A DNA stretch of 64,000 nt. It comes from Kordiimonas pumila. Lineage in GTDB: Bacteria > Pseudomonadota > Alphaproteobacteria > Sphingomonadales > Kordiimonadaceae. Under the pieces are notes generated by a model. That model did not search any database. It was not told the DNA's origin and saw only the letters and a program-made list of their open reading frames with translations. The translations under genes were made by a program, and so were the position numbers. How positions within the stretch are numbered: the stretch's first letter is position 1; each line of letters opens with the position of its first letter. The DNA lies in NCBI RefSeq assembly GCF_015240255.1, contig NZ_CP061205.1, positions 3,892,501 to 3,956,500 of the forward strand. Reading direction: 5' to 3'. Positions 1-63,217 of the stretch are shown in pieces.

Positions 1-1415
1 GCGGCGGACGCCATAGCGGCTGTGCCAGCACTTGCTGCACTGGCGGCACTGGCCCCAGAAGAGAAAGCCGCGAAGGCTGCGGACGCCCCTTCAAAAATAA
101 CTGAAGCGGTGCCTGCAAGCACAGCCGCCGGAAGCGCGCCGCCTGTGTCGCTGATAATCTTGCCCCGGTTTTTGCAGCAGTCCTTAAAGAGGGTTAAAAG
201 CCCGGCCTTCTGGCAGTCCATCCCGCGCCCGGTGAAGACCTGCACCTCGTCGAGGCAAGCACCTGACGCGTCCCTCTGACCATCATTTCCATAGGCGGCA
301 CGCGGGTTCTGTGTATCCTCAATCGGGAAACTGTTTGTATCAACGCAGAAGGTATCCGAGCAGCGGCTCACGCCGTCGCTCCCGACACGGCAGTCCTCCA
401 CCCCTTCAAGGGGGCATTCGTCAGGCAAAGGCTCGTCGCGGCATTCACCCGGCAGTGTCACCGTCGTGCACTCGCCTGGCACCGTCTGGCTCGTACAGGT
501 TCCCGGGATCACGATATCCCGGCAGTCCCCGGGAACAGCTTCATTGGTGCAAGCCCCCGGTATGGTTTCTGTGTGGCAGGCACCAGGCACTGTTTCTGTG
601 CGGCAGGTCCCCGCCTCTCGTACCGTCCGGCACGCGCCGGGTACGGTTTCAGTGCGACACTGACCCGGCACCACTTCGGTCCGGCAAATATCCGGCTGGG
701 GCACGCTCGTGCACACCCCCGGCACCCAGACGTTCCTGCAATTGACCTCGCTTGTCTGACTGGAGCAGGCCGCAAACTCCAGGCACTCTCTGCCGCGCCT
801 CGTGCATCCTGGTATCCGGCGCGAGCACACCCTCCCAGCCGCCGTACATTCTGAACCGTCAAAGGGGCAGATAAAAATGGTTCTCGTGTCGCACTGGCGT
901 TCATAGCTCCCTGGTGCGCACACTTCTTTTGGTGGCTGGGCCTCGCAGATACGCCGCGTCGTCGAAGGGTCACAGACGCGCCTTGTGGTATCAGGATCGC
1001 AGACCCTCACATCCCGGTCGGGATCACAGACCTCTCTCTCCGTATCCGGTTCACACACCTGCCGCGTGGTGTCCGGCTCGCATATACGGTTGATAATGTC
1101 GGGATCGCACTGACGGGTTGTTGTATCCGGCTCACAGGTCTCGATCACCTCATCCGGGGCGCAGCTTGTAACCTCGCTATCCGCTTCGCAGACCTGATGC
1201 ACGCGGTTCACAAGACACTCAGAAGCTGTCAGGGGGCAGACACCCTTATCACAGATGGCAATCTCGCCTTCGCCGTCATAGTCTCCGTCACTATTGAGGT
1301 CTATCCCGCAGTAAGAGCCGCCCTGGAGTTCCACGATGCTCTCAGCGCCCGCGAGGCTGTTCCAGACTAGAATAAAACAGAGACCTAGAGCGGCTGTTTG
1401 GTACCGGTTGTACAT
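1..1415 (-). CDS. TraN-like exported protein with two nonapeptide cysteine arrays (3' end outside window)
   Basis: The frame opens at an ATG at 1413-1415 and stays open to the window edge, about 471 residues, so the C-terminus is missing. A hydrophobic signal peptide occupies residues about 7-24. Cysteines then recur exactly every nine residues from Cys67 to Cys175 (units like CEPDTTRQV) and again from Cys226 to Cys334 (units like CRTETVPGA), twelve units in each array. After the arrays, around residues 386-408, comes an F-T-G...C...DCCK signature that I associate with the C-terminal part of TraN mating-pair stabilisation proteins, followed by an Ala/Ser-rich stretch. The start overlaps the end of the upstream TraN-like gene by 31 bp. 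The likely role is an exported, disulphide-rich outer-membrane protein that stabilises donor-recipient contact. The TraN assignment rests on the CC motif and operon position; the arrays themselves match no family I can name. Confidence 0.75.
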   Translation of the reverse strand, partial: MYNRYQTAALGLCFILVWNSLAGAESIVELQGGSYCGIDLNSDGDYDGEGEIAICDKGVCPLTASECLVNRVHQVCEADSEVTSCAPDEVIETCEPDTTTRQCDPDIINRICEPDTTRQVCEPDTEREVCDPDRDVRVCDPDTTRRVCDPSTTRRICEAQPPKEVCAPGSYERQCDTRTIFICPFDGSECTAAGRVCSRRIPGCTRRGRECLEFAACSSQTSEVNCRNVWVPGVCTSVPQPDICRTEVVPGQCRTETVPGACRTVREAGTCRTETVPGACHTETIPGACTNEAVPGDCRDIVIPGTCTSQTVPGECTTVTLPGECRDEPLPDECPLEGVEDCRVGSDGVSRCSDTFCVDTNSFPIEDTQNPRAAYGNDGQRDASGACLDEVQVFTGRGMDCQKAGLLTLFKDCCKNRGKIISDTGGALPAAVLAGTASVIFEGASAAFAAFSSGASAASAASAGTAAMASA

Positions 1416-3373
1416 ATCAAATCCTGACCTGCGAGCCGCATGGACTGCATGAGGGCCAGTGCCTGTGGAAACTCATTCAAGCATCCACATTCACTGACTA
1501 TGGTTTCGCCAGGACCGGCAGGACAAAGACCCGCCGCACAGTGATGATAGGTAAAGTGACCCGCTTCAGGGTCTGTGAGCAGATCACCGACCACCCCGGA
1601 CGATGACACCTCACTATCGGTTACAGACACACGTGTTTTACATATCTGCTGACACTCAGACACACCGTAGTCGCTATCAAAGGCATACCCCCTCGTGAGC
1701 GCTACTTTTGACCCGTCCTCCCCCAGTTGGATATCCGCAACCTGATCAACCGTCGAACCGCTGTAGATATGGGAAGCGCGGGTAAAATCAAACGTGAGAC
1801 CTCCCTCGTCTCCAATTTCACATTCATAGGTCCGCTCCCGCACAAACCATGGTTTGGTGAATGAGCGAGAACACTCGGCGCCGTACAGGGTCCGCGTCTC
1901 AGGAAGCGGTGTGAGGCCAGTCCGTCCCCTGTTTTTAAAAGTGTCGACGCCGTCAACCGTCTCCTCCAGAAACGCGCAGGCATCGTTTTCACTGTACGGT
2001 GCACATGTATTTTGTATGTCTTCCAGAAGATCGCAGCCAGACCTATAGCGGACCCGCCCCCTCAGTAACGCGCTGCCCTTACTTTTAACCGCTACCACCA
2101 TCTTGATCTGATTGAGCCCTTCCTTGAGATGCCCCGTGATATCTTTCATGATAGAGACGCTGTGTTGATCATTGATCTGGCAGTCCCCAGGCCTGTTGAC
2201 CCCGTCAAAGCCGCCCGTAGAGAAGACAAGCTCCCCGTTCACGCTCACCGCAATCTGGTCTTCGTAGAGGGCATCCAGAAGTGTTGCCTCCCTGATCCGG
2301 TCAAGATGACCAACCGCCCAGGTCACCTCCCGCGTGAAATAGTGGCACCCGCCTGAGACCCGGATATTATCATCTTCGCCGTCCCCGAGACGGAAGGTGA
2401 AACAGTCAGTTTCTCCGGCGCAGCTATCCTCAGCGTAGGGGGCCGCGGCGCTACTCCCTATAATATCCGGGCGCAGTATCTCTCTCAGGGTCACCTGCCG
2501 CTCAATCCTGCACATGTTTCTCTGGAAGCCATCAACTCCTTCTGAGGGAATATTCTCTAATAGGCTGAAGACAGGGTCGCTCGCGGCCGCCGCAAAGGCA
2601 TCACTTGAAATCTCCGCCGGATTATCCGCGTAAGCGTGCCCAGGCCTACTCACAGGCTCCGCGCAGGCGGCCATATCCTGCCCCGCGAGCCGGATCATAA
2701 AATCTTCCTTTTCGACGCTGCTGACCGCATAGCGAGGATCACGCTGCATCAAGGCACCCGCCACACCGCCCGCCAGATCGTCGAGGATGCTGCTCCTGTT
2801 CGTAAAGCCGAGCCCGTTTCCGCAAGACGCATTGAGGCAGTAACAGCCCGCAAGCGCGGAAAGGCTCGTGTCGGTGAGCGTCACTAAGCCTGCAGATGAA
2901 CTGCTCCAGGCATAAGAGCGACAGCCATTAAAGGTACCAAGCTCACAGCTGATAATACCATTAGCGCAGACGCCAGACACAGGAACGGGAACGCTGTAGC
3001 TCGCATCATAGGTCCCGTCAAAGTCGGTATCCTGCTTTAGTCTCACTGGTGACAGGTCACCTCCTGACCCGAGCGCAAAAAATACTTCGAGATAGTAGGA
3101 AGACCCTGGGCAGGATATCTGCTGGTTAAAGCGCTGACGGCCATCAAGGGTCGTAAAAGCTGTACCAGAGAGAAGCGGCGACGACAGATTCTGAGACACC
3201 GCATCAGCCCCTGCAAACCGGTCCCGGATGGCCGCATAAGTATCCGCCGCCTGATCTTTTAGGGTCGACTGCTCGTCCCCGTCCTTTGCCCACAGAGAGG
3301 AAGACCCGAGAAGACAGAGGCTGACTAGCGTGCCATACAAGCGATATAGTCGATGATCAGAATGCGGTGACAC
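1385..3373 (-). CDS. TraN-like large exported conjugation protein
   Basis: I chose the GTG at 3371-3373 (662 residues): it follows AGAAGGA by eight bases and is followed directly by a signal peptide ending near LWA-KDG. The frame is open further upstream inside traU, so a longer form cannot be excluded. The protein has many cysteines spread through it and no obvious membrane anchor, so it should be periplasmic or outer-membrane. The C-terminal stretch ECGCLNEFPQALALMQSMR and what follows resembles segments I recall from alphaproteobacterial TraN-like proteins. Its position directly after traU (17 bp overlap) fits traN. The following gene also has TraN character, so the classical TraN functions may be shared between two products or duplicated. 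The exact role is inferred from context. Confidence 0.65.
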   Translation of the reverse strand: MSPHSDHRLYRLYGTLVSLCLLGSSSLWAKDGDEQSTLKDQAADTYAAIRDRFAGADAVSQNLSSPLLSGTAFTTLDGRQRFNQQISCPGSSYYLEVFFALGSGGDLSPVRLKQDTDFDGTYDASYSVPVPVSGVCANGIISCELGTFNGCRSYAWSSSSAGLVTLTDTSLSALAGCYCLNASCGNGLGFTNRSSILDDLAGGVAGALMQRDPRYAVSSVEKEDFMIRLAGQDMAACAEPVSRPGHAYADNPAEISSDAFAAAASDPVFSLLENIPSEGVDGFQRNMCRIERQVTLREILRPDIIGSSAAAPYAEDSCAGETDCFTFRLGDGEDDNIRVSGGCHYFTREVTWAVGHLDRIREATLLDALYEDQIAVSVNGELVFSTGGFDGVNRPGDCQINDQHSVSIMKDITGHLKEGLNQIKMVVAVKSKGSALLRGRVRYRSGCDLLEDIQNTCAPYSENDACAFLEETVDGVDTFKNRGRTGLTPLPETRTLYGAECSRSFTKPWFVRERTYECEIGDEGGLTFDFTRASHIYSGSTVDQVADIQLGEDGSKVALTRGYAFDSDYGVSECQQICKTRVSVTDSEVSSSGVVGDLLTDPEAGHFTYHHCAAGLCPAGPGETIVSECGCLNEFPQALALMQSMRLAGQDLICTTGTKQPL

Positions 3374-4340
3374 AGCAATATTCCTTCTCAAACACTTGCC
3401 AGGCATAATTATCATGGTGCGGGGGATGCATCCGGCTCGTCCACAAGAGCCCCGTGCGGCCAATATTGACGCAGCTACTTTGCTTCACAGGCTTCATCAT
3501 CTGGAGTTTATAGAGGGACTTCTGCCAGATGGGCGCAAGCCGTTCGCCGCAGCCACTCCGCAAGCTATTTCTAAGGAGCCCGAGCCGCCCCATCATAAAG
3601 ATCTGCTTGGCCGCAATCGCCGCATTGGCTTCCACGATATCACCACTCGAAGACCGCCCCCCGAGTGGATAGGTGGATCCCCAGCCGCCCATGCACCAGA
3701 AAAGCGTATCAAGGGTTCCGCCCGTATGGCTCAAGCCCGCATCCGCGACACAGGCGAGCAAAGCCGCCGGGTTCCCAAACAGCACGGCTTCAGGGTTGAT
3801 GATGGCGCCGAGTATCTCATTCTGGTAGGTGGGCAACACTTCAGACATCATCGCCACATCAAACCCGCTCGTATCAAGGCACGGGATGTCTGTAAACAGA
3901 CCCAGCATGGCCCAAACGGGGGCGATATAATAATGCATCTGAGCAAAGGTGGTGGCCTGCCGGTGCGTGTTACGGCTGCCACCATGAAGCTGGCCCGTCC
4001 CCGGCAGAATGTCCACACCGAGGGGCATCATGCAGCCGGGGTTTTCAACGGTATCAATCCAGCGGTTCGGGGCCCAGAAGTTGATACGAATACCCGGTGT
4101 CGGAATTCCGAAGCTCCCCGGGCAAAAACAGATGGGCGACTTGGGGTTATCCGCATCGAGCGGTGTCTTGCTACCGATAGAGATCCCCGCAATCTGAATC
4201 GGAAAGATGCACGGCCAGTGAACCTTGGTGAGCGGATTGATGAAACCCTGGTCACAAGGGGATGCCTGCACGCGCATGCTGGCAAAGAAGGTAACCAGCG
4301 ACAGTCCAACAAGGAAGCAAAGACACGACCGCCTACCCAT
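3357..4340 (-). CDS. traU: TraU-like F-type conjugation protein
   Basis: The 327-residue protein is close to the size of F TraU (about 330). I take the ATG at 4338-4340, which overlaps the traW stop (ATGGGTAG), although the frame is open further upstream. A signal peptide (residues about 5-27, ending MRVQA-SPC) precedes a mature cysteine-rich protein with repeated CFCPG, NPGCMMPLG and WCMGGWG segments. TraU is a periplasmic protein needed for pilus assembly and DNA transfer in F-type systems and depends on disulphide bonds, which fits the thiol isomerase at the head of this operon. It lies between traW and the TraN-like genes, the usual F-type order. Confidence 0.88.
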   Translation of the reverse strand: MGRRSCLCFLVGLSLVTFFASMRVQASPCDQGFINPLTKVHWPCIFPIQIAGISIGSKTPLDADNPKSPICFCPGSFGIPTPGIRINFWAPNRWIDTVENPGCMMPLGVDILPGTGQLHGGSRNTHRQATTFAQMHYYIAPVWAMLGLFTDIPCLDTSGFDVAMMSEVLPTYQNEILGAIINPEAVLFGNPAALLACVADAGLSHTGGTLDTLFWCMGGWGSTYPLGGRSSSGDIVEANAAIAAKQIFMMGRLGLLRNSLRSGCGERLAPIWQKSLYKLQMMKPVKQSSCVNIGRTGLLWTSRMHPPHHDNYAWQVFEKEYCCVTAF

Positions 4341-5106
4341 CGTGCCTCTCCTTAGCATCCTCAGTCTCTTCTGCCCGCGCAGCGGCCTCCGGCGTGACCT
4401 CTTCGATGAACAGGGTCTTACCCTCCTGCCGGATAATGCTCGGCACATACTGAAGCTCGAAGCGCGTGCGGATCTGCTCCTCAAGCTTGAAGATCGCCGT
4501 CTTGCGCTGCCGTGACTCCGCAAGCGGGTTACCGCCGCTCAAGAGCACCATGTCGCCCTCAGTCCTCTCCTCAAGCGCCCAATCAAGAAGAGGCGCATCA
4601 ACCACAAACAGGCGGCTCGGGAGGGTCAGATACTCAAGGGGATTAAACCGGTACCCTTTCGGATAAAGAACCTTCCCCTCCGCATCTGCTATCTCAAAGG
4701 AAAGTGTGAAGAAGGGGATGAACGTGCGGGTGCGAGCGACCTCAGCGCGCGGAAGTTCAGGAGAAGCAAGCGCGGACCAGTCTTCCTCGTCCCCAAACAC
4801 GCCAGGGTCAAACGGCGTGGCCGCAACCGCCGCCTCAATCTCCTCAAGCGCATCCCGCTCGATCACCGGATATAGCCTTCCAATGATTTCGGTTTGCTTT
4901 GTGTCAGTGTCAGCAGCTGCACCGATCGGGATACTCCCCACACTGGCACTTAAAAGAATGGGGACTGCCAAACGGCCTGCCACGGTCCTGGCACAAGAGC
5001 AGCAGGCCATAAGCCAGTCCCCAAACCCGAACAGACCGCCTTCTGGGAGGGGGGTGGGCCACGGCCGGTTCGGTAACCTCGTCGCTATATCATGTGAGAT
5101 GTTCAT
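4333..5106 (-). CDS. traW: TraW-like F-type conjugation protein
   Basis: This 257-residue protein has an extended N-terminus with a hydrophobic export segment (about residues 42-64, ending GAAA-DTD). It continues with the typical TraW opening, GRLYPVIERDALEEIE. The C-terminal half contains a conserved RTFIPFF...YPKGYRFNPLEY region. TraW is a periplasmic pilus-assembly factor acting with TraU and TrbC. The start codon overlaps the traC stop as ATGA and the stop overlaps traU, so translation is coupled on both sides. The export signal lies further in than usual; a shorter form starting at Met33 (ahead of the hydrophobic segment) is possible. Confidence 0.85.
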   Translation of the reverse strand: MNISHDIATRLPNRPWPTPLPEGGLFGFGDWLMACCSCARTVAGRLAVPILLSASVGSIPIGAAADTDTKQTEIIGRLYPVIERDALEEIEAAVAATPFDPGVFGDEEDWSALASPELPRAEVARTRTFIPFFTLSFEIADAEGKVLYPKGYRFNPLEYLTLPSRLFVVDAPLLDWALEERTEGDMVLLSGGNPLAESRQRKTAIFKLEEQIRTRFELQYVPSIIRQEGKTLFIEEVTPEAAARAEETEDAKERHDG

Positions 5107-7628
5107 TCTGCGGCCCTCGCTTTTGGCCCCTCTAGCCGCCGCGCGAGGACGGCGCGGTCCTTCCCTTTCACGAGCGTATCGATCGCTTCCGCCGGGCTCT
5201 GGCCGATTGCAATCAGCTTCGAATAGCGGGCCACATCCTCGGCGGCACTCGTATTCATCCAGTAAGAGTGCGGATCCACGACAATCCGCGCCACCCCGGC
5301 ACCGAAGGCCGAACTGATAAACACTTCAGAATAGTTGGGTTTATTGTTGGTCACCGACTTCAGGAGATCGAGCGCGAACCCGTCATACTCGATGACTTTC
5401 TCTGCGGTAGCCTTCCCGTAGGTCTCACCCTGTAATAAAAACTTGGTGGCGGCATTATCCCAAATGACCCCGCCCACATCGCCGAAGGTTTTAAGGTCCA
5501 TCACCGACTGCACCACCACGCCGAACGATCCGCCATACTTTCGGGCGCGGCGGTAACCCGCCTCAATCACCGACTTGAAGTTGCTGGCCCGTCCCCCCGC
5601 CAGATTATCCTTCAGAAAAGCGGCCGCTTCCTCAAAAAGGATAAAGCTCGGGATAGAGCGGTCGCCGAGATAGAGATCCTGCGTCACCGCATTCATAATC
5701 TGCAGAACGATGACGCTGAAGAGCTGCGGAAACTGCCGGAGGCGTTCAAGCTCCAGAACCACATAGTCATCCCGTGAGATATCGAAGGTGCTTCTGCCAT
5801 TAAAATAGCGGCCATACTCTCCCTCGCTGCAAAAAGCCTGCAGGTTGAAGGCAAGGGCCTTTGCCTTCTCTGCGAGAAACTCGAGAGACCCAGTGTCACC
5901 GCTCTCAATATGGTTCGGAAAGACCGAGAGATACTCGCGTGCGGCATCAACACCGTCCTGAGCCCGGCCACTTTCCACCACCCAGCGGCTCGCGAGCCTG
6001 ATCAGATTGAGAGAATCCTCGTCAAGGTCTCGCCCCGATCCACTGGAGCACATAAGCGCCAGACACTCAGACGCGGTCTGGATCCCGAGTTGCCGCTCTT
6101 CCCTGTCCGCCCCCTTAAAATCAAACGGGTTGATACAGAGCGAAGCGTCCGCCCCCACATCAAGAAACCGTCCTCCCATCAGCGAGCAACTCTTCTGATA
6201 CGAATAGCCGATATCGATGATGCGGATCTTCGAGCCTTGCGCATAATATTCATTGGTCAGATTATTGAGGAAGAAGGACTTCCCGGCCCCGGATTCCGCC
6301 GCCACAATAAAGTTCTGATTATTGAGGTTCGGATGGAAGAGGTCATAGGTGATCATCTGCCCCTTGCGGCCAAAGAGCATGATGGCCGGTTGGCCCGCGC
6401 CCCGGTAATCCGCCTGGATCGGCACTAAAAGCGCCAGAGAATTTATCGGCGCCATAAAATCCCTATCAAGAAGGGTCAGGTTCTTGCCCTCATCATAGAA
6501 ACCGAACGGCAGGCTCATCAGAAACAGTGGCAAGGTCAGATAGCTCTCATCCTGCACGGCGAACCCCAGGTCTTCCCACATGCCTTTCGCCCGGCTGACG
6601 CTCTCGCGCACCTCGCCTTCAGAATATCCAAACACCCACATCACCGGCACATATCTGAGGATCTTCTCGCCAGACTCGAGCGCGTCCGTGAGCCACTGAA
6701 ACTCCTCAGTGCGTTTTTCTGTATCACGGGAGAATTTGGCACCGCCCTTCTGCGCCCCCACCACCTGGGCCTTGCGGTAAATCTCTGAGCGCGTGCTCCT
6801 GAAAAACACCGTGAGGGAAAACAGAAATGGTGACGGTATCTGACGGCTATCATCGGTAATCCCCATGATACCCCCAAACAGCCGGTTGATCTTCTCAGCC
6901 GTAATTTTTGAAGGGGTCGCAAGCGGCGTGAAACAGCGGCCATACTGCTTCCCAACCCGGGCCACACTGCCCTTAAAGGCATAGTCCGCGCCGCCTGAGA
7001 GTATCTGTTTCCTTATCGGCTTCCCGCTATCAACGGTCCCGTTCCGGCGCTCCCGCATATCGCTAAAGAGCCGCCGCAGCATGGCGACGAGCCCGGAAGG
7101 TCCACCAGCAGGTAAAGGGACGCAGCCAAACTTGCTGAGAGATTCCCGGATACCCGCAATCACATCGCGGTCAATGGGCGCCTTATCCTTGAGCGCCACG
7201 AAGAAACGGAAGTTACGGAGCGGAATACCTCGCATCTGTTTGACGCTGCTCTGGTTCTCTTTCCAGTAGCGGACACTTGCCGCAAGGTTATCCTTCACGA
7301 CCTGGCTGTCCCGGAGTTTGATGCTTTGGTAGTGATCAAAATAATCCCCCACATAAGGGTCGGCATAGAGGATAAACTGCATGATCGCTGACTTCGGTAA
7401 ATCCATACCGAGCAACCGCCTGATGGCTGTGAGCGCCTGCTCGCCCGCAAAAGCGACCGGTTGCACCTCCCAGAGGTAGCCGGTGGTCCCATCGGTCAGA
7501 TGGTAAAGACCCTCCCCCTCATCATAGGATTTATAGAGGAGATAATCCGAGAGGCGGTCCCGCGACAACATCTGCCGGTACCCGGAGCGGGTTCCGCCGC
7601 CCTCATCGCCGTATAGCCACGTGAACAT
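5103..7628 (-). CDS. traC: TraC-family conjugation ATPase (VirB4 type)
   Basis: This 841-residue protein matches the size of F TraC. The nucleotide-binding core is visible: a Walker A motif ESGAGKSFF near residue 447 and a Walker B-like segment FILFEEAAAFL near residue 664. The N-terminal part is the TraC/VirB4 non-catalytic region. TraC is the cytoplasmic, inner-membrane-associated ATPase that powers pilus assembly. It follows traV by four bases and overlaps traW by four, so it sits in the body of the operon. No missing key residue was seen. Confidence 0.93.
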   Translation of the reverse strand: MFTWLYGDEGGGTRSGYRQMLSRDRLSDYLLYKSYDEGEGLYHLTDGTTGYLWEVQPVAFAGEQALTAIRRLLGMDLPKSAIMQFILYADPYVGDYFDHYQSIKLRDSQVVKDNLAASVRYWKENQSSVKQMRGIPLRNFRFFVALKDKAPIDRDVIAGIRESLSKFGCVPLPAGGPSGLVAMLRRLFSDMRERRNGTVDSGKPIRKQILSGGADYAFKGSVARVGKQYGRCFTPLATPSKITAEKINRLFGGIMGITDDSRQIPSPFLFSLTVFFRSTRSEIYRKAQVVGAQKGGAKFSRDTEKRTEEFQWLTDALESGEKILRYVPVMWVFGYSEGEVRESVSRAKGMWEDLGFAVQDESYLTLPLFLMSLPFGFYDEGKNLTLLDRDFMAPINSLALLVPIQADYRGAGQPAIMLFGRKGQMITYDLFHPNLNNQNFIVAAESGAGKSFFLNNLTNEYYAQGSKIRIIDIGYSYQKSCSLMGGRFLDVGADASLCINPFDFKGADREERQLGIQTASECLALMCSSGSGRDLDEDSLNLIRLASRWVVESGRAQDGVDAAREYLSVFPNHIESGDTGSLEFLAEKAKALAFNLQAFCSEGEYGRYFNGRSTFDISRDDYVVLELERLRQFPQLFSVIVLQIMNAVTQDLYLGDRSIPSFILFEEAAAFLKDNLAGGRASNFKSVIEAGYRRARKYGGSFGVVVQSVMDLKTFGDVGGVIWDNAATKFLLQGETYGKATAEKVIEYDGFALDLLKSVTNNKPNYSEVFISSAFGAGVARIVVDPHSYWMNTSAAEDVARYSKLIAIGQSPAEAIDTLVKGKDRAVLARRLEGPKARAAE

Positions 7629-7632
7629 CAGA

Positions 7633-8166
7633 TCACTCCCTCTTCTTCTTATTGGAGGAGGCTGACGAAGGGTCGCCCTCAGACGGCAAGCGCACCAGAT
7701 CCTCCATCATGGGTGAGCTGCGATAGGGATGGACCGTCCCCTCAAGGACAAAGCGGGCTTCTTCCACCACCGAGAAAATATAGCGCGGCATATAGAGACG
7801 CTGGTCCCCGTCCCGTCTGTCCGTATGCGGCAGGATCAGGGTGCGTACAGTTTTCGCGGGCGCCACCATGGGGGTAACGGGACTCTCGATTAGCGCCTGC
7901 AATTCTTTGTAGACAGCCCCCTTATAGCCTTCATAAGAGCCACCCTGTCCGCTTATGTCACCTGCCTTCTCGCCGCTTTCACGTGGGGCAGCTGTATCCT
8001 CCATATTCTGAAGGGCATTCTGGTATGCGGTGCCCGGATGCTCGCAGCCCCCATGATCGCTGTTTTTGCAGCTGAAGCTGCTGTCATAGGAGGAGAAGGT
8101 GGATGAACAAGCGCCAAGAAAACAAACAAGGCCTGTCAGAGTGAGATATTTAGCCCTGCTCCACAT
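7633..8166 (-). CDS. traV: TraV-like outer-membrane lipoprotein
   Basis: This 177-residue protein opens with a lipoprotein signal peptide and a lipobox-like LGAC, placing the lipidated cysteine at residue 20. A second pair of cysteines (SCKNSDHGGC) follows at the position typical of TraV. The ribosome site GGAGG sits six bases before the ATG, inside the end of traB (17 bp overlap). TraV anchors the TraK/TraB core complex in the outer membrane, the VirB7 role. The remainder is low in hydrophobic segments, as expected of a periplasm-facing lipoprotein. Confidence 0.85.
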   Translation of the reverse strand: MWSRAKYLTLTGLVCFLGACSSTFSSYDSSFSCKNSDHGGCEHPGTAYQNALQNMEDTAAPRESGEKAGDISGQGGSYEGYKGAVYKELQALIESPVTPMVAPAKTVRTLILPHTDRRDGDQRLYMPRYIFSVVEEARFVLEGTVHPYRSSPMMEDLVRLPSEGDPSSASSNKKKRE

Positions 8167-9385
8167 CGCCGACCTCCCTGATGTTCAGCGTGACACCTTC
8201 CTGGATGACGAGCACAAACCGCTTGCCGGTTCCGACTTCGATCACCGGGGTAATGGTCTTCGCGAGATCAAGATAATAGTCCTTGAGACTACCTGCAGCG
8301 CCGCTCACACCGCTTCCGAGCCCTGCGACCGCAGCTTCCTTCGTACTGAAAACCTGGGTGGTTCCGAGCGGCGATACGCTCTGCGTCCCCGCCCCAGTCT
8401 CAACAACAGACCCGAAGCCCTCAAGGACACCCGCCGCAAAGGCCCGGCCAACAACGGCACCGTCCCGGGTCACCACATTGCCCGATAGGCCCTTCTTGCC
8501 GTCCGTATCAACAAAATAGCCCTTGATCGCTTCGTCAATGACTGTGCGTTCATTATAGTCGATACAGCTGAGAGAGACGGCGCGCACTTCCACACGTTCT
8601 TTCGCCAGCACCCCCATGGCGTTACCAACCACAAAGCAGCCCTGCAGGTTGGCGCGCACATGGTTCGGTAGCACCGCTGGCGCCTGTACCCGTGCTAGCA
8701 CCGGCTCCGGGTTAGACTGCGCCTCACCGCCCACCATGGAATCAACACCGGTCAAGAGAACAGCGTCCATAAAACCAACGGGCAAATAGATCGACTTGAG
8801 CGTTTTTTTTTGAGGTTCCGAGACGGGCACGGGTGCGATGCCCGCAATACCACCCCTGATGTGCCGAACCGCTGGTTCAAGCTCAGCGCCACGCACTGGT
8901 CCCGCCTGCATCTGGCTCCGGGTTAGGTCGGAGGCTAGCTCTGGCCTTTTCTCACTATGGATAACCGGCGGCGGATAGGCGGCACGCGCTTCCATGCTTG
9001 CGAGTTCATTCTTTGGCGCGAGGTCCGAGAGCGTTACCCCTTCTGCCTGACGGTCCGAAACAGCCTTCAGCGCTTGCCGCACGCTGACCATATCCTCGCC
9101 GATCTCTTTGAGGGTCGCTCCGAGCTCCGCGATGACAGTCGCTTGTGCCCGCTGTTCTGCGCGCACGCCCTCCCCGAGAGAATCTTCAAGAAGGCGGCTA
9201 TCAAGCGTGATGCTGCTCGCCGTATCCGGCACTCCGTCCTCACGCTTGTCACGACTGTCCCCCACATTTACAAGGACATAGAGAAGACAGCCGACACTGA
9301 GGACCGTAGAGCCCGTGACCAGTAAGCGTTTCTGCCTGCTTGTGAGCGCCTCAAACCGCGCGCGACCTCTATCAAACACGCTCAT
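8150..9385 (-). CDS. traB: TraB-like core-complex protein (VirB10 type)
   Basis: The 411-residue protein has one N-terminal membrane segment (residues about 19-42) after a short basic cytoplasmic tail, then a Glu/Arg-rich probably coiled-coil stretch, then a C-terminal TraB/VirB10 domain with conserved Gly-rich segments such as GNVVTRDGAVVGRAFAAG. TraB spans the periplasm and links the inner-membrane machinery to the TraK/TraV outer-membrane ring. The start overlaps the traK stop as ATGA and the end overlaps traV. Confidence 0.88.
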   Translation of the reverse strand: MSVFDRGRARFEALTSRQKRLLVTGSTVLSVGCLLYVLVNVGDSRDKREDGVPDTASSITLDSRLLEDSLGEGVRAEQRAQATVIAELGATLKEIGEDMVSVRQALKAVSDRQAEGVTLSDLAPKNELASMEARAAYPPPVIHSEKRPELASDLTRSQMQAGPVRGAELEPAVRHIRGGIAGIAPVPVSEPQKKTLKSIYLPVGFMDAVLLTGVDSMVGGEAQSNPEPVLARVQAPAVLPNHVRANLQGCFVVGNAMGVLAKERVEVRAVSLSCIDYNERTVIDEAIKGYFVDTDGKKGLSGNVVTRDGAVVGRAFAAGVLEGFGSVVETGAGTQSVSPLGTTQVFSTKEAAVAGLGSGVSGAAGSLKDYYLDLAKTITPVIEVGTGKRFVLVIQEGVTLNIREVGDVEQG

Positions 9386-10179
9386 GGGTATGCCCTCCCG
9401 TCTTCTCGCCGGTAGACAATGATCAGCCGCCCTACCTCGCCGGCCTTAAGCCTTTGTCGTTCTAAGGTGATGGCAAAGATGGACGCGCCAAAACGTGTGT
9501 GCATAAACATGGCTTCTTGGAGCGCAACATCAGCGCGTGCCCTCAGAAGAAATTCCCGCGCGCTATAAGCCGTCCCCTCGACCGTAACTGTCCGACGCAC
9601 CCGCACATCCACCTTTGGCTCCTGCAAGGGCGTATAGGGGTCAAACTGGTCTCTGACAGAAAAGGTCTGGGGTATATCGTCCCGGAGCATGCCGAGAGAG
9701 ATGGCGACAGCGCGTTCTTCCTCCGGGAGCGGACTGAAGAGCGCCATATTGACAGCAGCCTTGTCCCCGCTTCCCGGCACCAGAAATACAGTCTGGGCCA
9801 CCACATCCTGCGGGCTTACCAGAAGCGTATAGGTGACGCCGCCGCAGAAGATATAAAACTCGCTCCTAGCCGTCACATAGGATACCTCACCGCCAAACTC
9901 TTCATACTGAAACTTGATAAAAGCTTCTGTGCCAGCGTTTGAAACGAGGGCTCCCTTCTCTTCGCTATAGTGATAGCCACCGATCTTGCCCCCAAGGCAG
10001 ACAATCCGGTTCACATCCCTGTTAGAGAGCACAAGCTCCGCCGCTGTGTCAGGCAGAACGGTATGATGGGCACCCATGAGAGGCTTGGTCATCTCTGCCG
10101 CCGCCGGGATAGACAGATAAACAGCAAGCGGCGCAAACCCGGTAAGCTGAGCCATAATTCTAGTTTTCTGTCTGGACAT
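9382..10179 (-). CDS. traK: TraK-like secretin-type protein (VirB9 type)
   Basis: This 265-residue protein starts at an ATG preceded by a strong GGGAGGG ribosome site and overlaps the end of traE by 20 bp. A signal peptide ends around PAAA-EMT. The LSNRDVNRIVCLGG segment is a recognisable TraK signature; the C-terminal half has the expected beta-rich pattern. TraK forms the periplasmic/outer-membrane ring with TraV and TraB. A second in-frame ATG eight codons downstream would also keep the signal peptide. Confidence 0.86.
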   Translation of the reverse strand: MSRQKTRIMAQLTGFAPLAVYLSIPAAAEMTKPLMGAHHTVLPDTAAELVLSNRDVNRIVCLGGKIGGYHYSEEKGALVSNAGTEAFIKFQYEEFGGEVSYVTARSEFYIFCGGVTYTLLVSPQDVVAQTVFLVPGSGDKAAVNMALFSPLPEEERAVAISLGMLRDDIPQTFSVRDQFDPYTPLQEPKVDVRVRRTVTVEGTAYSAREFLLRARADVALQEAMFMHTRFGASIFAITLERQRLKAGEVGRLIIVYRREDGRAYP

Positions 10180-10786
10180 TCTTTCCCTCCCCGATACGGC
10201 TGTAGCCGATGCCGGTCAGCCAGAAACGGCCCTCCTCGACCAGATAGTCCATCTCCACAAACCCGGTGTCCTCAGTGCGGCTGCGACCAATGAACCTCAG
10301 GCGCTTCACAGGCACGCGGATGCGTCGCTCGCCAATCTCAAAGGGCGCTTCATAGCGAATGTGGGTCGCAAAGGTGATCTCCCGAAAGTCAGAGAGCTGA
10401 CCGACAAGCAAACGAAACTCTTCCCGGACCGCGCTGTAGCGAGACGGATGTACGAGCTTCAGCACCTCATCGAGCTGGAACTCAAGACTGCTCGACGTAT
10501 AGGTGCCCGTGAGCTGAACAATGTTGCGGGCGATCGCGATCAGATAGGTCTCACTCGGGGTATCACCGACCAGATAAAGCCCTTCGAGCGACTGACCAAA
10601 CGGCACCAGGATTGTCTTTTCCCTGTCAGAGAACATGATAAGCGTTCCCGCCACCGCGAGCGTCCCGACAAACGACAGGACCGCGACAAAGCGCAAAAGG
10701 CGGTTTTCTGCCCAGATGTTCGATCCCTCATCGGTAAAATACCTGAGGAACGGCTTATGTTTCTGAGGGGACGCTATCTCACTCAT
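10160..10786 (-). CDS. traE: TraE-like pilus assembly protein
   Basis: I take the ATG at 10784-10786 (208 residues), which overlaps the traL stop by eight bases (ATGAGTGA arrangement). One membrane segment lies near residues 32-52 after a basic start. The rest is periplasmic and has the length and pattern of TraE (188 residues in F). TraE is the VirB8-like inner-membrane component of the F-type pilus assembly complex. The longer upstream frame is antisense to nothing useful and overlaps traL, so it was not used. Confidence 0.85.
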   Translation of the reverse strand: MSEIASPQKHKPFLRYFTDEGSNIWAENRLLRFVAVLSFVGTLAVAGTLIMFSDREKTILVPFGQSLEGLYLVGDTPSETYLIAIARNIVQLTGTYTSSSLEFQLDEVLKLVHPSRYSAVREEFRLLVGQLSDFREITFATHIRYEAPFEIGERRIRVPVKRLRFIGRSRTEDTGFVEMDYLVEEGRFWLTGIGYSRIGEGKNVQTEN

Positions 10787-11045
10787 GGAAGGTCTCCGTA
10801 AACTGCGGCGGATAGCCTTTAAAGCCTCCAAACCCGGCCCGGTAAAACAGATGCCCGATATAGCCCCGTGGTTTGGAGCGCTTATAGGGGATGAAGACAA
10901 ACAGGCCGGCAATCAGATACAGAAAAGAAGAGCCCTGAAGGAGGAGCGACAGCACATAGCAGAGCGCCACCAGAACGAATTCCTGATCATCAAGACCAAT
11001 AATTCGCATCGGACGGTGGGGATATTGTGGCAGTCTGACTTCCAT
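10779..11045 (-). CDS. traL: TraL-like pilus assembly protein
   Basis: This 88-residue protein has TraL size (about 90). It contains a central hydrophobic pair of segments (about residues 20-55) flanked by a conserved N-terminal PxxPHRPMRIIGLDDQEF and a C-terminal basic YKRSKPRGYIGHLFYRAG region. TraL is the VirB3-like inner-membrane component. It sits between traA and traE, the standard F-type order. Confidence 0.86.
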   Translation of the reverse strand: MEVRLPQYPHRPMRIIGLDDQEFVLVALCYVLSLLLQGSSFLYLIAGLFVFIPYKRSKPRGYIGHLFYRAGFGGFKGYPPQFTETFHE

Positions 11046-11075: not shown

Positions 11076-11411
11076 TCAGATGGTGAAGCCAACACCGGTG
11101 ACGATGGAATCCCCTGCGACCATGGCAGTGGTACCGGCGAGGCCGCCAAGCCCCATGTACCAGTTGCGCTGGGCAAAGCCGTAAAGGCCAAAAATGATCG
11201 CGACCGTCGCGACCCCGAAACCAATCGGCCCCTGGATGCCCTGCTCCACAACGATGTCATAAAACTCATAGCCAAGATCCCCGGACGCAGGTGCCGTAAA
11301 GGCAAATGCCTTCGACCCAATTGCGGCCACAAGGAGACCGGCAATCGCCGTAATCCGTCTGTCCTCATAGCGGCCTGGCTTGGTAATTTTTACTGGTTGG
11401 TTGGTCATCAT
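11076..11411 (-). CDS. traA: TraA-like F-type propilin
   Basis: The 111-residue precursor has a long leader. A LepB-type cleavage after AFA at residue 37 would leave a 74-residue mature pilin with two hydrophobic segments separated by a short polar loop (FAQRNWYMG). This is the layout of the F pilin (70 residues mature). The product is the subunit of the conjugative pilus. It overlaps the stop of the dsbC-like gene by two bases and is separated from traL by 30 bp. Whether the N-terminus is acetylated or the pilin cyclised cannot be told; no traX or traQ is in view. Confidence 0.82.
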   Translation of the reverse strand: MMTNQPVKITKPGRYEDRRITAIAGLLVAAIGSKAFAFTAPASGDLGYEFYDIVVEQGIQGPIGFGVATVAIIFGLYGFAQRNWYMGLGGLAGTTAMVAGDSIVTGVGFTI

Positions 11412-12169
11412 CTGTCTCCCTGTTCGGATGTGGTCTCTAGGAATATTTCAAGCCGTGCCTGGTCAAAACCACGCACATACTCGCCGTCTATGGTGAGCGT
11501 CGGGGTTCCCCTGATACCAGCAGCCTTTGCAATTCTCATATGCTCTTCGAGGCGGGTTCGCCCCTCATCACAGCTCAAAAGCGTTTGGGGTTTACGGCGC
11601 TCGTAAATCTCTGAAAAACTCTCTTCTGGGTTTTCTGAACAAAGGATATGCTCAGCCAAGCCTTGCGCGCTCTTCGAATGCCCCACCGCGAAAATGATGC
11701 GGCGGCGGACCGGGCGGGCACCACCTTCCACTTTCTCCTCAAGAAAGGCATGCAGACGCTGGCAGTAACCACACTCAGGGTTTGAATATTCGGTGATCAG
11801 CGGTGCACCAATTGGACCAAACTCCAAAGCACTTGCAAAGTCGATGCTCGCCATGCGCTTCTCGGTGGCAGCTGTCAGGGCTGCGTCCGTCAGGTTGTTT
11901 CCGTCCGCATCCCACATCTCGCCGAAGAAAAGGACATTTGCAGCGGGTGCATAATAGATCATCTGCTCACCGGTATCGATCTGATACATTCCCTCAACGG
12001 GTGACGCCTCAAAGGACTGGAATGCGAAGTTCGAGAACGTCTGCTTGAGGTTTACTTCAGCTTCAGTCTTCGCCCTCTCCATGGCTTCCAAATCAAGATC
12101 AGGACCAGAGCCAGCCAGCACGGATGTGCTCATCATCATGGCCGTAACTATATTCTTCATACGTCTCAT
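11408..12169 (-). CDS. DsbC-like periplasmic thiol:disulphide isomerase, first gene of the tra operon
   Basis: This 253-residue protein has a signal peptide (residues about 4-20), an N-terminal DsbC-type domain and a thioredoxin-fold C-terminal domain with the active site CGYC and a cis-proline segment RGTPTL. DsbC-like enzymes reshuffle wrong disulphides in exported proteins. It heads the operon (ribosome site GGAGG before the ATG) and would serve the cysteine-rich TraU and the two TraN-like proteins encoded downstream. F itself encodes the related TrbB in the same role, so the association is known; placement before the pilin gene is characteristic of several alphaproteobacterial systems. 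Confidence 0.88.
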   Translation of the reverse strand: MRRMKNIVTAMMMSTSVLAGSGPDLDLEAMERAKTEAEVNLKQTFSNFAFQSFEASPVEGMYQIDTGEQMIYYAPAANVLFFGEMWDADGNNLTDAALTAATEKRMASIDFASALEFGPIGAPLITEYSNPECGYCQRLHAFLEEKVEGGARPVRRRIIFAVGHSKSAQGLAEHILCSENPEESFSEIYERRKPQTLLSCDEGRTRLEEHMRIAKAAGIRGTPTLTIDGEYVRGFDQARLEIFLETTSEQGDR

Positions 12170-13129: not shown

Positions 13130-13330
13130 ATGAAAGCGTCACGATTTACGGATGCTCAGAAGGCATTTATTGTCAAGCAGGGTGAGGAAGGCACGCCCGT
13201 TGCTGAGATTTGTCGTCAGGCAGGTATTAGCCAAGCCACATACTTTAACTGGAAGAAGAAATACGCCGGGTTAATGCCCAGTGAGATGAAACGTCTTCGA
13301 GAGCTCGAGGAAGAGAATAATCGACTGAAG
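13130..13330 (+). pseudogene. IS3-family OrfA, truncated by IS481 insertion
   Basis: The N-terminal 67 codons of an IS3-family OrfA are intact, including the helix-turn-helix GTPVAEICRQAGISQATYFNWKKKY and the start of the leucine-zipper region EEENNRLK. The reading frame then runs straight into the terminal repeat of an IS481 element at 13331. The ribosome site AGGAG precedes the ATG. No matching OrfB follows on the other side, so the rest of this IS3 copy is gone. The original left end is probably just upstream, near 13059 (TGTGCTCCC), but its partner end is missing. Confidence 0.8.
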
Positions 13331-14320
13331 TGTAGGAATGTGCGACCTCGTGGGTCTCTTCATGTAACCTAGTTGCATGGAGGGTTTTACAATGACCAAT
13401 GATGAGAAAGAGATCAGGCGAAAGCTTGCGGTTCTTAAGCGGACTGAAGAAGTGGGCTCAGCTGCTAAAGCGTATAGATATTATGGCATTCCAAAGACAA
13501 CATACTTCAGATGGAAGAAAGCCTACCGGGCCCATGGTGAGCAGGGTTTAATCAACAAAAAGCAAATTGCTAAAAGGCATCCTAATCAAACGCCAGATGA
13601 AGTGGTCGAGAAAATACTTTACTTGCGTCAGAAGTATCACTTGGGGCCAATTCGGATCATGTGGTACATGGCCCGATATCACGATTTGCGGGTGTCTGAT
13701 GCTACAATCTCACGCGTGTTAAAGCGGCACGGTGTGAGCAGACTACCAAGGAATGTCGGTCGGCGTAAAATCCACACAAAGCGGTATCAAAAGCAGGTGC
13801 CTGGCCATCACATTCAAATGGATGTTAAGTTTCTGATATTCAAAGGAAAAGATGGCAAAAAGATCAAACGCTATCAATACACAGCAATAGACGATGCAAC
13901 ACGTGTACGGGCCTTGAAAATATACAAACGACATACGCAAAAAAGCGCCATCGATTTTGTAGACTATATCATCGACAAATTCCCATTCCGCATTCAACAG
14001 ATTAGGACAGACCGGGGGCATGAGTTCCAGTCTCAATTCCACTGGTATGTCGAAGACAAGGGTATCAGACACGTTTATATTAAAGCCAGAACACCGCAAC
14101 TCAATGGCAAGGTAGAACGCTCACATCGCTCAGACCAACAAGAGTTTTACCAACTTCTCTGCTATAAAGATGATGTCGACCTGGAGGCCAAACTGGCTGA
14201 ATGGGAAGCCTTTTATAACTTTGCAAGACCACATGGTGCTCATGGCGGAAAAGCACCCTATGAAAAGCTATTATGAACAAATGAAGAGTCCCGCAAGCGA
14301 GTGGCTATTACATTTCTACG
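13331..14320 (+). mobile_element. IS481-family insertion sequence inserted in IS3 orfA
   Basis: The element is bounded by imperfect terminal inverted repeats. The left end begins TGTAGGAATGT and the right end, read on the opposite strand, begins CGTAGAAATGT; the similarity resumes with GGGNCTCTTCAT after a short offset. It contains one transposase gene and is about 990 bp, a normal size for IS481. No target-site duplication could be recognised. A 5'-deleted relative is present at 25876-26140. Confidence 0.78.
13392..14276 (+). CDS. IS481-family transposase
   Basis: I take the second in-frame ATG (13392), which follows GGAGGG; this gives 294 residues. An N-terminal helix-turn-helix (AAKAYRYYGIPKTTYFRWKK) is followed by a DDE integrase core: QMDVKF (first Asp), RTDRGHEF (second Asp) and GKVERSHR (Glu). 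The gene looks intact, so the element may be active. The C-terminal end (KAPYEKLL) differs from that of the second copy (KTPYESLREKLQ), so the two copies are related but not identical. Confidence 0.9.
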   Translation: MTNDEKEIRRKLAVLKRTEEVGSAAKAYRYYGIPKTTYFRWKKAYRAHGEQGLINKKQIAKRHPNQTPDEVVEKILYLRQKYHLGPIRIMWYMARYHDLRVSDATISRVLKRHGVSRLPRNVGRRKIHTKRYQKQVPGHHIQMDVKFLIFKGKDGKKIKRYQYTAIDDATRVRALKIYKRHTQKSAIDFVDYIIDKFPFRIQQIRTDRGHEFQSQFHWYVEDKGIRHVYIKARTPQLNGKVERSHRSDQQEFYQLLCYKDDVDLEAKLAEWEAFYNFARPHGAHGGKAPYEKLL

Positions 14321-62221: not shown

Positions 62222-63217
62222 TCATTCATCTTCACCCAATTCGCAACCTTGTACATCACCTGCACTGACAATCATTTTAAAGTGTTCAGAAATCTCAGGT
62301 TCATTGCGCTCTATATAATCTCGAATAGCCGCATTATCCATGAGCTTTACAAGGTAGCCTTTCGCCCCAATCAAATTAAGAAGGGTAGAACCATAATTCT
62401 GTTCAGCATCTTTATATCTGTCCTGAACCTGACTCATTTCCTTTTCTAGCCTTATCAACTGTTCAACAGGTGCTTTTTTAGGAACAGCCTGCCTTTTTTT
62501 AACATCCGTCCTTTTTTCAGGTGGTGTCGCTTTCAGCAGGGCATCAGCATGCGCTACTGTGATAGAATTGCTGGAAACCATAAGCTCTACCGCCTCCACT
62601 TGCCTCGCAGATTTCATATTACGCAGTATACGCGAAACTTCTGGTGTAAACTGTTGATCCTTCAGGAGGTCTATGGCTTTAGGGGCAATACCATCCAACA
62701 AACTTATACGTTTATGGATTGAACTCAAATTGACATTGAACGCACGTGCAAGTCGCTCTTTACTAACCCCCCGGTCAAGCGCCCTACGGATCATATAATG
62801 TTCTTGGATAGTCGATAAACGATTGATCCGATGATTATATGTATAAGTCTCATCATCTTTTGCTAATAAGCAAGGCGCTTCTTGATAATTTAGCTCTTTC
62901 AAAGCCAACACACGCAAATGGCCATCAAGTATCATAAAATCTGATGTTTCAACTTCAGATCTGATCACAGACAAGGGTTCTATCAGCCCAATTTCATGAA
63001 TGGAGGACACTATCTGCCTATATTTACGTGTTGTCATAATACCATCCGGCATACGCTTACTTTGCATCAATTTCCCTAGGGGTATCTGATAGGTATCCAA
63101 ATCAAAACCAAGCATAGTATTCAGCGGTGCCGTTGGATATTCAAGCTTCCCCTCACCTTCTTCATGAATCGGATAAATTCCTGGATACATTGGGGCTACT
63201 TTATTGTCTTTTGGCAT
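62222..63217 (-). CDS. ParB/RepB-like partition protein
   Basis: This 331-residue protein has a ParB N-terminal domain (RQIVSSIHEIGLIEPLSVIR; FMILDGHLRVLALKELN), a central helix-turn-helix (GVSKERLARAFNVNLSSIHKRISLL) and a C-terminal RepB-like region with a coiled coil at about 250-285. It should bind a centromere-like site for partition, or act as a nucleoid-binding regulator. Its start overlaps the end of the next ParB-like gene by 22 bp. No ParA is visible in the window. Confidence 0.85.
   Translation of the reverse strand: MPKDNKVAPMYPGIYPIHEEGEGKLEYPTAPLNTMLGFDLDTYQIPLGKLMQSKRMPDGIMTTRKYRQIVSSIHEIGLIEPLSVIRSEVETSDFMILDGHLRVLALKELNYQEAPCLLAKDDETYTYNHRINRLSTIQEHYMIRRALDRGVSKERLARAFNVNLSSIHKRISLLDGIAPKAIDLLKDQQFTPEVSRILRNMKSARQVEAVELMVSSNSITVAHADALLKATPPEKRTDVKKRQAVPKKAPVEQLIRLEKEMSQVQDRYKDAEQNYGSTLLNLIGAKGYLVKLMDNAAIRDYIERNEPEISEHFKMIVSAGDVQGCELGEDE

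Follow-up and report, generated by a model that had tools for sequence, protein, structure and literature searches.

The DNA analysed here (the window) is a stretch of 64,000 nucleotides from Kordiimonas pumila (contig NZ_CP061205.1, positions 3,892,501 to 3,956,500), and one end of it carries part of an F-type conjugation operon on the minus strand. The gene order is traE, traK, traB, traV, traC, traW, traU, a gene of 692 codons, traN, trbC, an S26 peptidase gene, traF, traH and traG. Leaving traN aside, the following genes of the operon and its head are found in the window:

1385..3463, minus strand: gene for a 692-residue protein directly upstream of traN (open reading frame)
3357..4523, minus strand: traU (Pfam TraU, 1.6e-91)
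4333..5106, minus strand: traW (NCBIfam TraW, 1.1e-17, under its equivalog cut-off)
5103..7628, minus strand: traC (Pfam TraC_F_IV, 1.8e-63)
7633..8166, minus strand: traV (Pfam TraV, 7.8e-24)
8150..10912, minus strand: traB, traK and traE (Pfam TrbI, TraK_N/TraK_C and TraE)
11408..12169, minus strand: gene for a DsbC-like disulfide isomerase near the operon head (Pfam DsbC_N, 2e-13; CGYC motif)

The 692-residue protein gave no Pfam or NCBIfam match at E-values up to 1. Its homologue in an Aeromonas plasmid, likewise encoded upstream of traN, shares 30% identity with it over 671 columns; the protein may be a second TraN-like partner. In the part of PMC11315126 available to us, TraF of F is without the CXXC that TrbB has there, whereas the TraF of the Kordiimonas operon carries a CGYC motif. 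Beyond traG, on the strand opposite to the tra operon, a TrwB_AAD_bind coupling protein and a TrwC relaxase are encoded (locus L205, 13029-17918, plus strand); with these two genes so near the operon, the element may be able to transfer itself.

Several other genes lie in the surroundings. Near the relaxase and outside the window, L205 encodes a protein with three Multiubiquitin (PF14452) stretches (962-1768, minus strand; 3.7e-30). Directly upstream of the tra operon head are two transposase-like open reading frames (window 13130-14276, plus strand), the second with an rve integrase core. A RepB/ParB plasmid-partitioning gene is present at 62222-63217 (minus strand), on what is a single 4.04-Mb contig, and may mark an integrated plasmid. 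The region 14343-34909 encodes two proteins of the Pfam Beta-lactamase family, an X-Pro dipeptidyl-peptidase, TonB receptors, an amino-acid permease and a muconate-lactonizing-enzyme-like protein, which together look like a peptide-use cluster.

The full 618-residue product of traN was compared with family profiles. It scores 79.5 bits against Pfam F_T4SS_TraN (curated cut-off 23; E-value 3.8e-22), and the best of the NCBIfam TraN models matches at 1.9e-34, although the NCBIfam cut-offs are not reached (NF009019, 119.1 bits against a cut-off of 518). Judged by these profiles, the protein is a member of the TraN family that stands outside the subfamilies named by NCBIfam. An earlier sequence-only reading of the window had called the protein TraN-like and suggested a comparison with TraN profiles; the Pfam score and the F-type tra operon around the gene bear this out. 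At least 20 cysteines are given as a criterion for TraN in the available excerpts of PMC9246713, and the full-length Kordiimonas protein has 50. Its parts lie as follows:

3..1415, minus strand: the part of traN in the window, residues 1-471 of 618, with the gene end beyond the window (open reading frame; Pfam F_T4SS_TraN)
1344..1415, minus strand: probable signal peptide, residues 1-24, judged by eye from the sequence
1218..1343, minus strand: N-terminal part of the base, residues 25-66, with a D-x-N-x-D-G-D-Y-D-G-E-G-E loop between C36 and C55
891..1217, minus strand: arm 1, C67-C175, 13 cysteines, consensus C-[DE]-P-D-T-T-R-R-V
921..947, minus strand: proline unit of arm 1, CEAQPPKEV, residues 157-165, opposite the PQPD unit of arm 2 in the base-anchored register
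741..890, minus strand: turn between the arms, residues 176-225, with C183-C217, C190-C211 and C197-C204 at i+j = 400-401
687..713, minus strand: proline unit of arm 2, CTSVPQPDI, residues 235-243
414..740, minus strand: arm 2, C226-C334, 13 cysteines, consensus C-R-x-[VE]-T-V-P-G-x
3..413, minus strand: C-terminal part of the base in the window, residues 335-471

Two arms of regularly spaced cysteines thus lie between the two parts of the base. In arm 1 the spacing is exactly nine residues with no slip, and the same holds, again with zero slips, for arm 2. When the 471-residue sequence was shuffled 20,000 times, the longest nine-spaced run of cysteines was seven, seen once. The ladders described by the sequence-only reading are therefore present and exceed what shuffling yields. 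Its count of 13 cysteines per array stands, with one small correction for arm 2: C217 also lies nine residues ahead of C226 and brings the raw run to 14.

The same reading had raised the doubt that the region might be a misassembled low-complexity tract, and had proposed a repeat search. At a score of 30, Tandem Repeats Finder (TRF) reported no array across the ladder region, its sole row within window positions 1-6000 being 28-53. Mean DNA identity among the 27-base units is 45% in arm 1 and 53% in arm 2; with units this diverged and no TRF array, the ladders appear to be maintained at the protein level. These results, together with the ladders found in three other genomes, speak against a misassembled or simple tandem tract.

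The ladder proteins number four: that of the window and those of Eilatimonas milleporae, Kordiimonas aquimaris and an uncultured Kordiimonas. All come from one family and hence are not independent. The C-terminal 282 residues of the window TraN are 61-65% identical to those of its three ladder homologues. The D-x-N-x-D-G-D-Y-D-G-E-G-E loop of the base is conserved in all four and occurs in looser form in the ladder-less TraN of a second family (f5); we take it to resemble an EF-hand calcium loop, and the calcium reading is putative. In the three other ladder loci, genes similar in size to the 692-codon gene occupy the position upstream of traN.

A profile of the base (A1) matched four of 29 genomes of the family, the window's included. 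At E ≤ 1e-30 it matched 21 of 396 genomes in the order and three of 385 in the class; the sequences of the two class matches other than the window (L162 and L163) lie outside the proteins compared. Among the order loci read, nine-residue ladders are found only in the four family members. A TraN match was obtained in 21 of 398 genomes and, when proteins from 12 of these 21 were examined, only the window's had the ladder. This patchy spread fits a mobile element. When the ladder region alone was searched against plasmids (tblastn, E-values up to 1e-3, low-complexity filter on), no match was obtained. In viral_contigs, profile A1 gave 120 stretches with no relative among them, and the Eilatimonas TraN gave one, which is not related. 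A DNA pattern for eight nine-spaced cysteines gave at least 120 stretches in the same collection, with nothing TraN-like among the matches listed; the 65 open-reading-frame rows from them with runs of at least seven were judged by eye to be low-complexity or out-of-frame repeats. A different route to a longer TraN is seen at L176, where a cysteine module with a spacing of about 7-18-9-9-9-7-9-9 occurs three times consecutively.

The arms are separate in the chain and built from different units, so that a matched length would need an explanation. Raw nine-spaced runs in arm 1 and arm 2 are 13 and 14 cysteines in the window protein, 13 each in Eilatimonas, 19 each in K. aquimaris, and 11 and 12 in the uncultured Kordiimonas. 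Counted from the base, the arms are equal in each protein (13/13, 13/13, 19/19 and 11/11); this equality depends on placing the extra cysteine in the turn in the two proteins whose raw counts differ by one. With that assignment the extra cysteine (C217 in the window protein, C188 in the uncultured Kordiimonas) sits in the turn, one residue off the mirror position of C183 and C164, respectively. Counting units in homologues, as the sequence-only reading had suggested, thus reveals a number that varies, from 11 to 19 rungs, with the arms matched within one in raw counts in all four proteins.

If the arms face each other, their cysteines are expected to mirror about a single point. In the window protein every one of the 34 cysteines of residues 60-342, turn included, has a partner at i+j = 401±1. 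Under exact matching, no register gives more cysteine-cysteine pairs than the base-anchored one, which leads in three proteins (15 against 13, 14 against 12 and 19 against 18) and ties in the fourth. When a tolerance of one residue is allowed and the base cysteines are added, other registers tie in three proteins, and in K. aquimaris register 500 (22 pairs) exceeds 483 (20 pairs). The register, as read from cysteines alone, is not certain.

Facing units in such a structure might be expected to change together. Each arm-1 unit k was paired with the facing arm-2 unit k in the base-anchored register, and the distances between units were compared by a Mantel test; the unit tallies of the arms comprise 52 units from the four ladder proteins. 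The pooled correlation is 0.50 (permutation p = 0.0002) for 48 units, the base-most rung being dropped because its sequence is nearly fixed, and 0.53 with that rung included. For the four proteins taken singly it is 0.50, 0.73, 0.39 and 0.58. Shifting the arms by one to three rungs in either direction gives -0.10 to 0.15, and circular shifts of up to four rungs and the parallel order give at most 0.20 (all units). None of 5000 order-preserving rearrangements reached the observed value; for the uncultured Kordiimonas alone, one of 17 order-preserving controls ties. Leaving out the proline units gives 0.36 for the pooled set (p = 0.0018) and 0.23 for K. aquimaris by itself (p = 0.12); taking away three base-proximal rungs as well gives a pooled 0.27 (p = 0.018) and 0.08 for K. 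aquimaris. These results show, at the level of unit sequence, that facing units co-vary specifically at the antiparallel register.

Proline-rich units illustrate the pairing. QPP in arm 1 stands opposite PQPD in arm 2 at unit 11 of both the window protein and Eilatimonas, QPP and QPD stand opposite PQPD at units 8 and 9 of the uncultured Kordiimonas, and GQP stands opposite PPP at unit 7 of K. aquimaris, a match made by eye and missed by the strict rule. Unpartnered prolines occur in the base-most arm-2 unit of all four proteins and in unit 5 of the uncultured Kordiimonas. Two further pairings were seen post hoc: the sole RD unit of the window protein faces its sole RE unit, and two identical TRRR units of Eilatimonas face two identical WET units. 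The charges of facing units score 17 for complementarity, where shuffled rungs average 8.0 (p = 0.026). However, the score rises to 23 at a two-residue offset and is -5 for the uncultured Kordiimonas alone, so the charges do not fix the register and are given little weight. Mutual information between single positions has no peak on facing positions (mean z 1.40 for facing positions, 1.30 for others).

The sequence-only reading had also proposed a structure prediction, and two AlphaFold2 (AF2) models were examined. Confidence is low in both: model 1 (window protein, four sequences) has a mean pLDDT of 54.8 and a pTM of 0.19, with ten-residue blocks of the arms at about 40 to 82, and model 2 (K. 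aquimaris) has a mean pLDDT of 54.4 and a pTM of 0.19, with blocks at 31 to 84. Most units of model 1 consist of a six-residue strand followed by a three-residue gap, the cysteine ending the strands of arm 1 and starting those of arm 2. The sequence of strand and non-strand positions in arm 1 is mirrored without exception (116 of 116) about i+j = 353, which is 401 in residue numbers, and the strands at the turn are 146-158 and 194-207 (model numbering). In model 2 the lower arm mirrors at 67 of 67 positions about 423, or 483 in residue numbers, the register with the top exact cysteine count in K. aquimaris and one fixed before the model was made; the upper half mirrors about 405, two rungs away. 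This mirrored pattern points, with low confidence, to strand pairing across the arms, and separate stacked ladders are not favoured by it. Foldseek with model 1 returned no match at E ≤ 0.001; a phage collar protein and pore-forming proteins came top, at E-values of 0.69 and above, and with model 2 it returned nothing at E ≤ 10. These fold matches are given no weight. Among PDB sequences, the TraN protein had no match at E-values up to 1 and the ladder profile had three chance-level rows only (0.8-1.1).

Taken together, the evidence favours an arrangement in which Cys67-175 lie opposite Cys334-226 in one antiparallel two-stranded ladder. A cystine ladder is known from theta-defensins, where the rungs link two facing strands. 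Those are cyclic peptides of 18 residues, whereas the Kordiimonas TraN would have 13 predicted rungs in line; it is encoded by an ordinary open reading frame of 618 codons, with nothing to indicate the backbone cyclisation of theta-defensins, and no kinship is claimed. A cystine-ladder-like module of algal HAP2 has parallel disulfide rungs, with three bonds in a 37-residue loop (PMC6327110, available part).

Among conjugation proteins, the closest comparison is with F-like TraN (Pfam PF06986; F, pKpQIL and R100-1; TraN-short), which shares the C-terminal domain, the place in the operon, the richness in cysteine and the plan of a variable part on a conserved base. According to the excerpts available, known TraN consists of a base and a tip that contacts an outer-membrane protein of the recipient (PMC9246713, PMC13104618, PMC10516633). 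Models of F-like TraN place the 22 conserved cysteines in the base and show an extended beta domain and a beta-sandwich tip (PMC9246713 and PMC10516633, in part), and the published AlphaFold models permit all cysteines to be in disulfides (PMC9246713, in part). The Kordiimonas TraN differs in having two strictly nine-spaced, length-matched arms where, in those excerpts, F-like TraN has its extended beta domain and tip. TraN-medium, TraN-long and TraN-V (IncA/C, IncH, A. baumannii) likewise differ in how large the part borne by the base is and how it is shaped (PMC13104618, in part); in the main text of that source the terms cysteine and disulf are absent, and no ladder was found described in the available part. 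Nor was a description of a TraN cysteine ladder found in open-licence PubMed Central, preprints aside, among the matches listed.

In the TraN proteins encoded by plasmids of Aeromonas, Enterobacter, E. coli, Buttiauxella and Citrobacter (WP_216980374.1 and relatives), the base shows 38-43% identity over the C-terminal part. Like the ladder TraN, those of Aeromonas, Enterobacter, E. coli and Buttiauxella have a base of this type and cysteine-rich stretches flanking a middle part, although their units are C-12-C-11 and not nine residues. Five related long-armed plasmid TraN proteins have a cysteine mirror of 10 or 11 pairs, which 2, 2, 10, 14 and 16 of 300 shuffles reach; for two Citrobacter proteins the mirror symmetry is not above chance (267 and 248 of 300 shuffles reach it). 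Mirrored cysteine arms in the plasmid TraN of Gammaproteobacteria are a lead, not a result. In nine of nine plasmid stretches examined, the gene upstream of traN is annotated TraN.

The ladder-less f5 family was taken to be Sphingomonadaceae, because TraN of Sphingobium and Novosphingobium plasmids matches the base at 40-44%. Its TraN frames are about 380-515 residues long and in most rows have the base cysteines of the ladder TraN (C-19-C-10-C-7-C ... C-8-C-(9 or 11)-C-5-C), a short loop replacing the arms. At the position of the arms, 15 of 20 order loci (L019-L038) have C-7-C, about nine residues, and C-8-C. The comparison reads as if the arms grew from a short hairpin.

The explanation that we regard as probable is a length-variable cystine-ladder stalk in the TraN of an F-type conjugation system, formed by a single lengthened hairpin. 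The gene product would be TraN, the outer-membrane mating-pair-stabilisation protein of such a system in Kordiimonas, in which the hairpin between the two halves of the base has been lengthened: arm 1 would run outward, the chain would turn near residue 200, and arm 2 would return antiparallel. Each nine-residue unit would comprise a six-residue strand and a three-residue bend with a proline. Unit k would face unit k, and the facing cysteines would form 13 cross-strand disulfide rungs, a single extra rung lying at the foot (C60-C342) and another three in the direction of the apex. The rise per residue of a fully extended strand is 0.33 nm, so that the stapled stalk would measure at most about 35 nm over 12 intervals (12 x 9 x 0.33 nm), the bends making it shorter, and that of K. 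aquimaris about 53 nm when fully extended. The stalk would hold the apex off the donor surface, most likely allowing it to reach the recipient through the recipient's surface coat. Rungs would be gained or lost on both arms jointly, which would make stalk length evolvable (11, 13, 13 and 19). With so many cysteines to pair correctly, folding help would be needed, and the DsbC-like isomerase and the CGYC-containing TraF of the operon may provide it. From the patterns above we infer disulfide formation, stalk length, contact with the recipient and function.

Other explanations account for part of these observations. The sequence-only reading had envisaged a stacked, disulfide-bonded rod, and each ladder could indeed be a rod of its own, a beta-solenoid or meander with disulfides between stacked neighbours within an arm; the strict nine-residue period with one cysteine per unit is what is expected of a stacked repeat. 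Nine residues are, however, short for a solenoid turn. Moreover, rods of this kind predict two unrelated ladders, but the counts match within one in all four proteins, facing units co-vary at the antiparallel register, and the strand limits in the AF2 models mirror across the arms. We consider stacking within each arm improbable, and of the earlier proposal it is the disulfide-bonded projecting structure that stands as likely, its recipient-binding tip being putative. Alternatively, a ladder could span the arms and do some other job, such as spacing at the pilus exit, anchoring in the donor's own surface layer, or sensing redox state or force. The arms are separated by only about 50 residues, fewer than Table 1 of PMC13104618 (part available) gives for the tips of IncA/C and IncH TraN, which leaves some room for this view. 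Yet the TraN proteins of IncF, IncA/C, IncH and A. baumannii plasmids rely on a tip at the distal end and on outer-membrane proteins of the recipient (PMC13104618 and PMC9246713, in part), and the window protein retains both the TraN base and the operon position, so that a different job is conceivable but unlikely.

The nine-residue period, together with the acidic D-P-D of arm 1, also recalls the nonapeptide calcium-binding beta-roll of RTX proteins, or a metal-binding array of cysteines. However, the GGxGxDxUx repeat of the beta-roll is missing, with zero GGxGxD in the 618 residues, and the period is instead carried by cysteine. Such a reading would leave the matched arms and the covariation unexplained, and we give it very little credence. 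Least credible is neutral low-complexity expansion or an artefact of assembly. The number of units does differ between genomes, as expansion would have it, but the units have diverged in DNA while keeping the frame and the place of the cysteine, no tandem repeat was detected, and three further genomes have ladders with matched arm lengths.

With the lengthened-hairpin stalk as the preferred reading, the traN gene is ordinary, and it is the protein, with its matched, length-variable disulfide ladder, that is probably unusual. Somewhat more speculatively, with doubt slightly outweighing conviction, TraN stalks may form a new structural class, an open-ended cross-linked beta-ribbon to which one rung is added on both arms at once, so that evolution would set the reach of conjugation rung by rung. 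Proline pairs would then be matched hinges, and stalk length would act as an inherited ruler suited to how thick the surface coats of donor and recipient are; the Gammaproteobacterial arms with other units would be independent versions.

Which recipients a conjugation machine can hold is influenced by TraN, an effect that published work attributes to the tip. Should this tip be carried by a stapled ribbon whose length varies by the rung, reach would be a second, countable variable, readable by counting cysteines. The matched arms also suggest that covariation among the repeats of single chains, here in four sequences only, can reveal how a repeat protein pairs internally. As a material, a cystine ladder of 13 to 19 rungs would be unusual, and the DsbC-like protein of the operon is a candidate folding partner for it.
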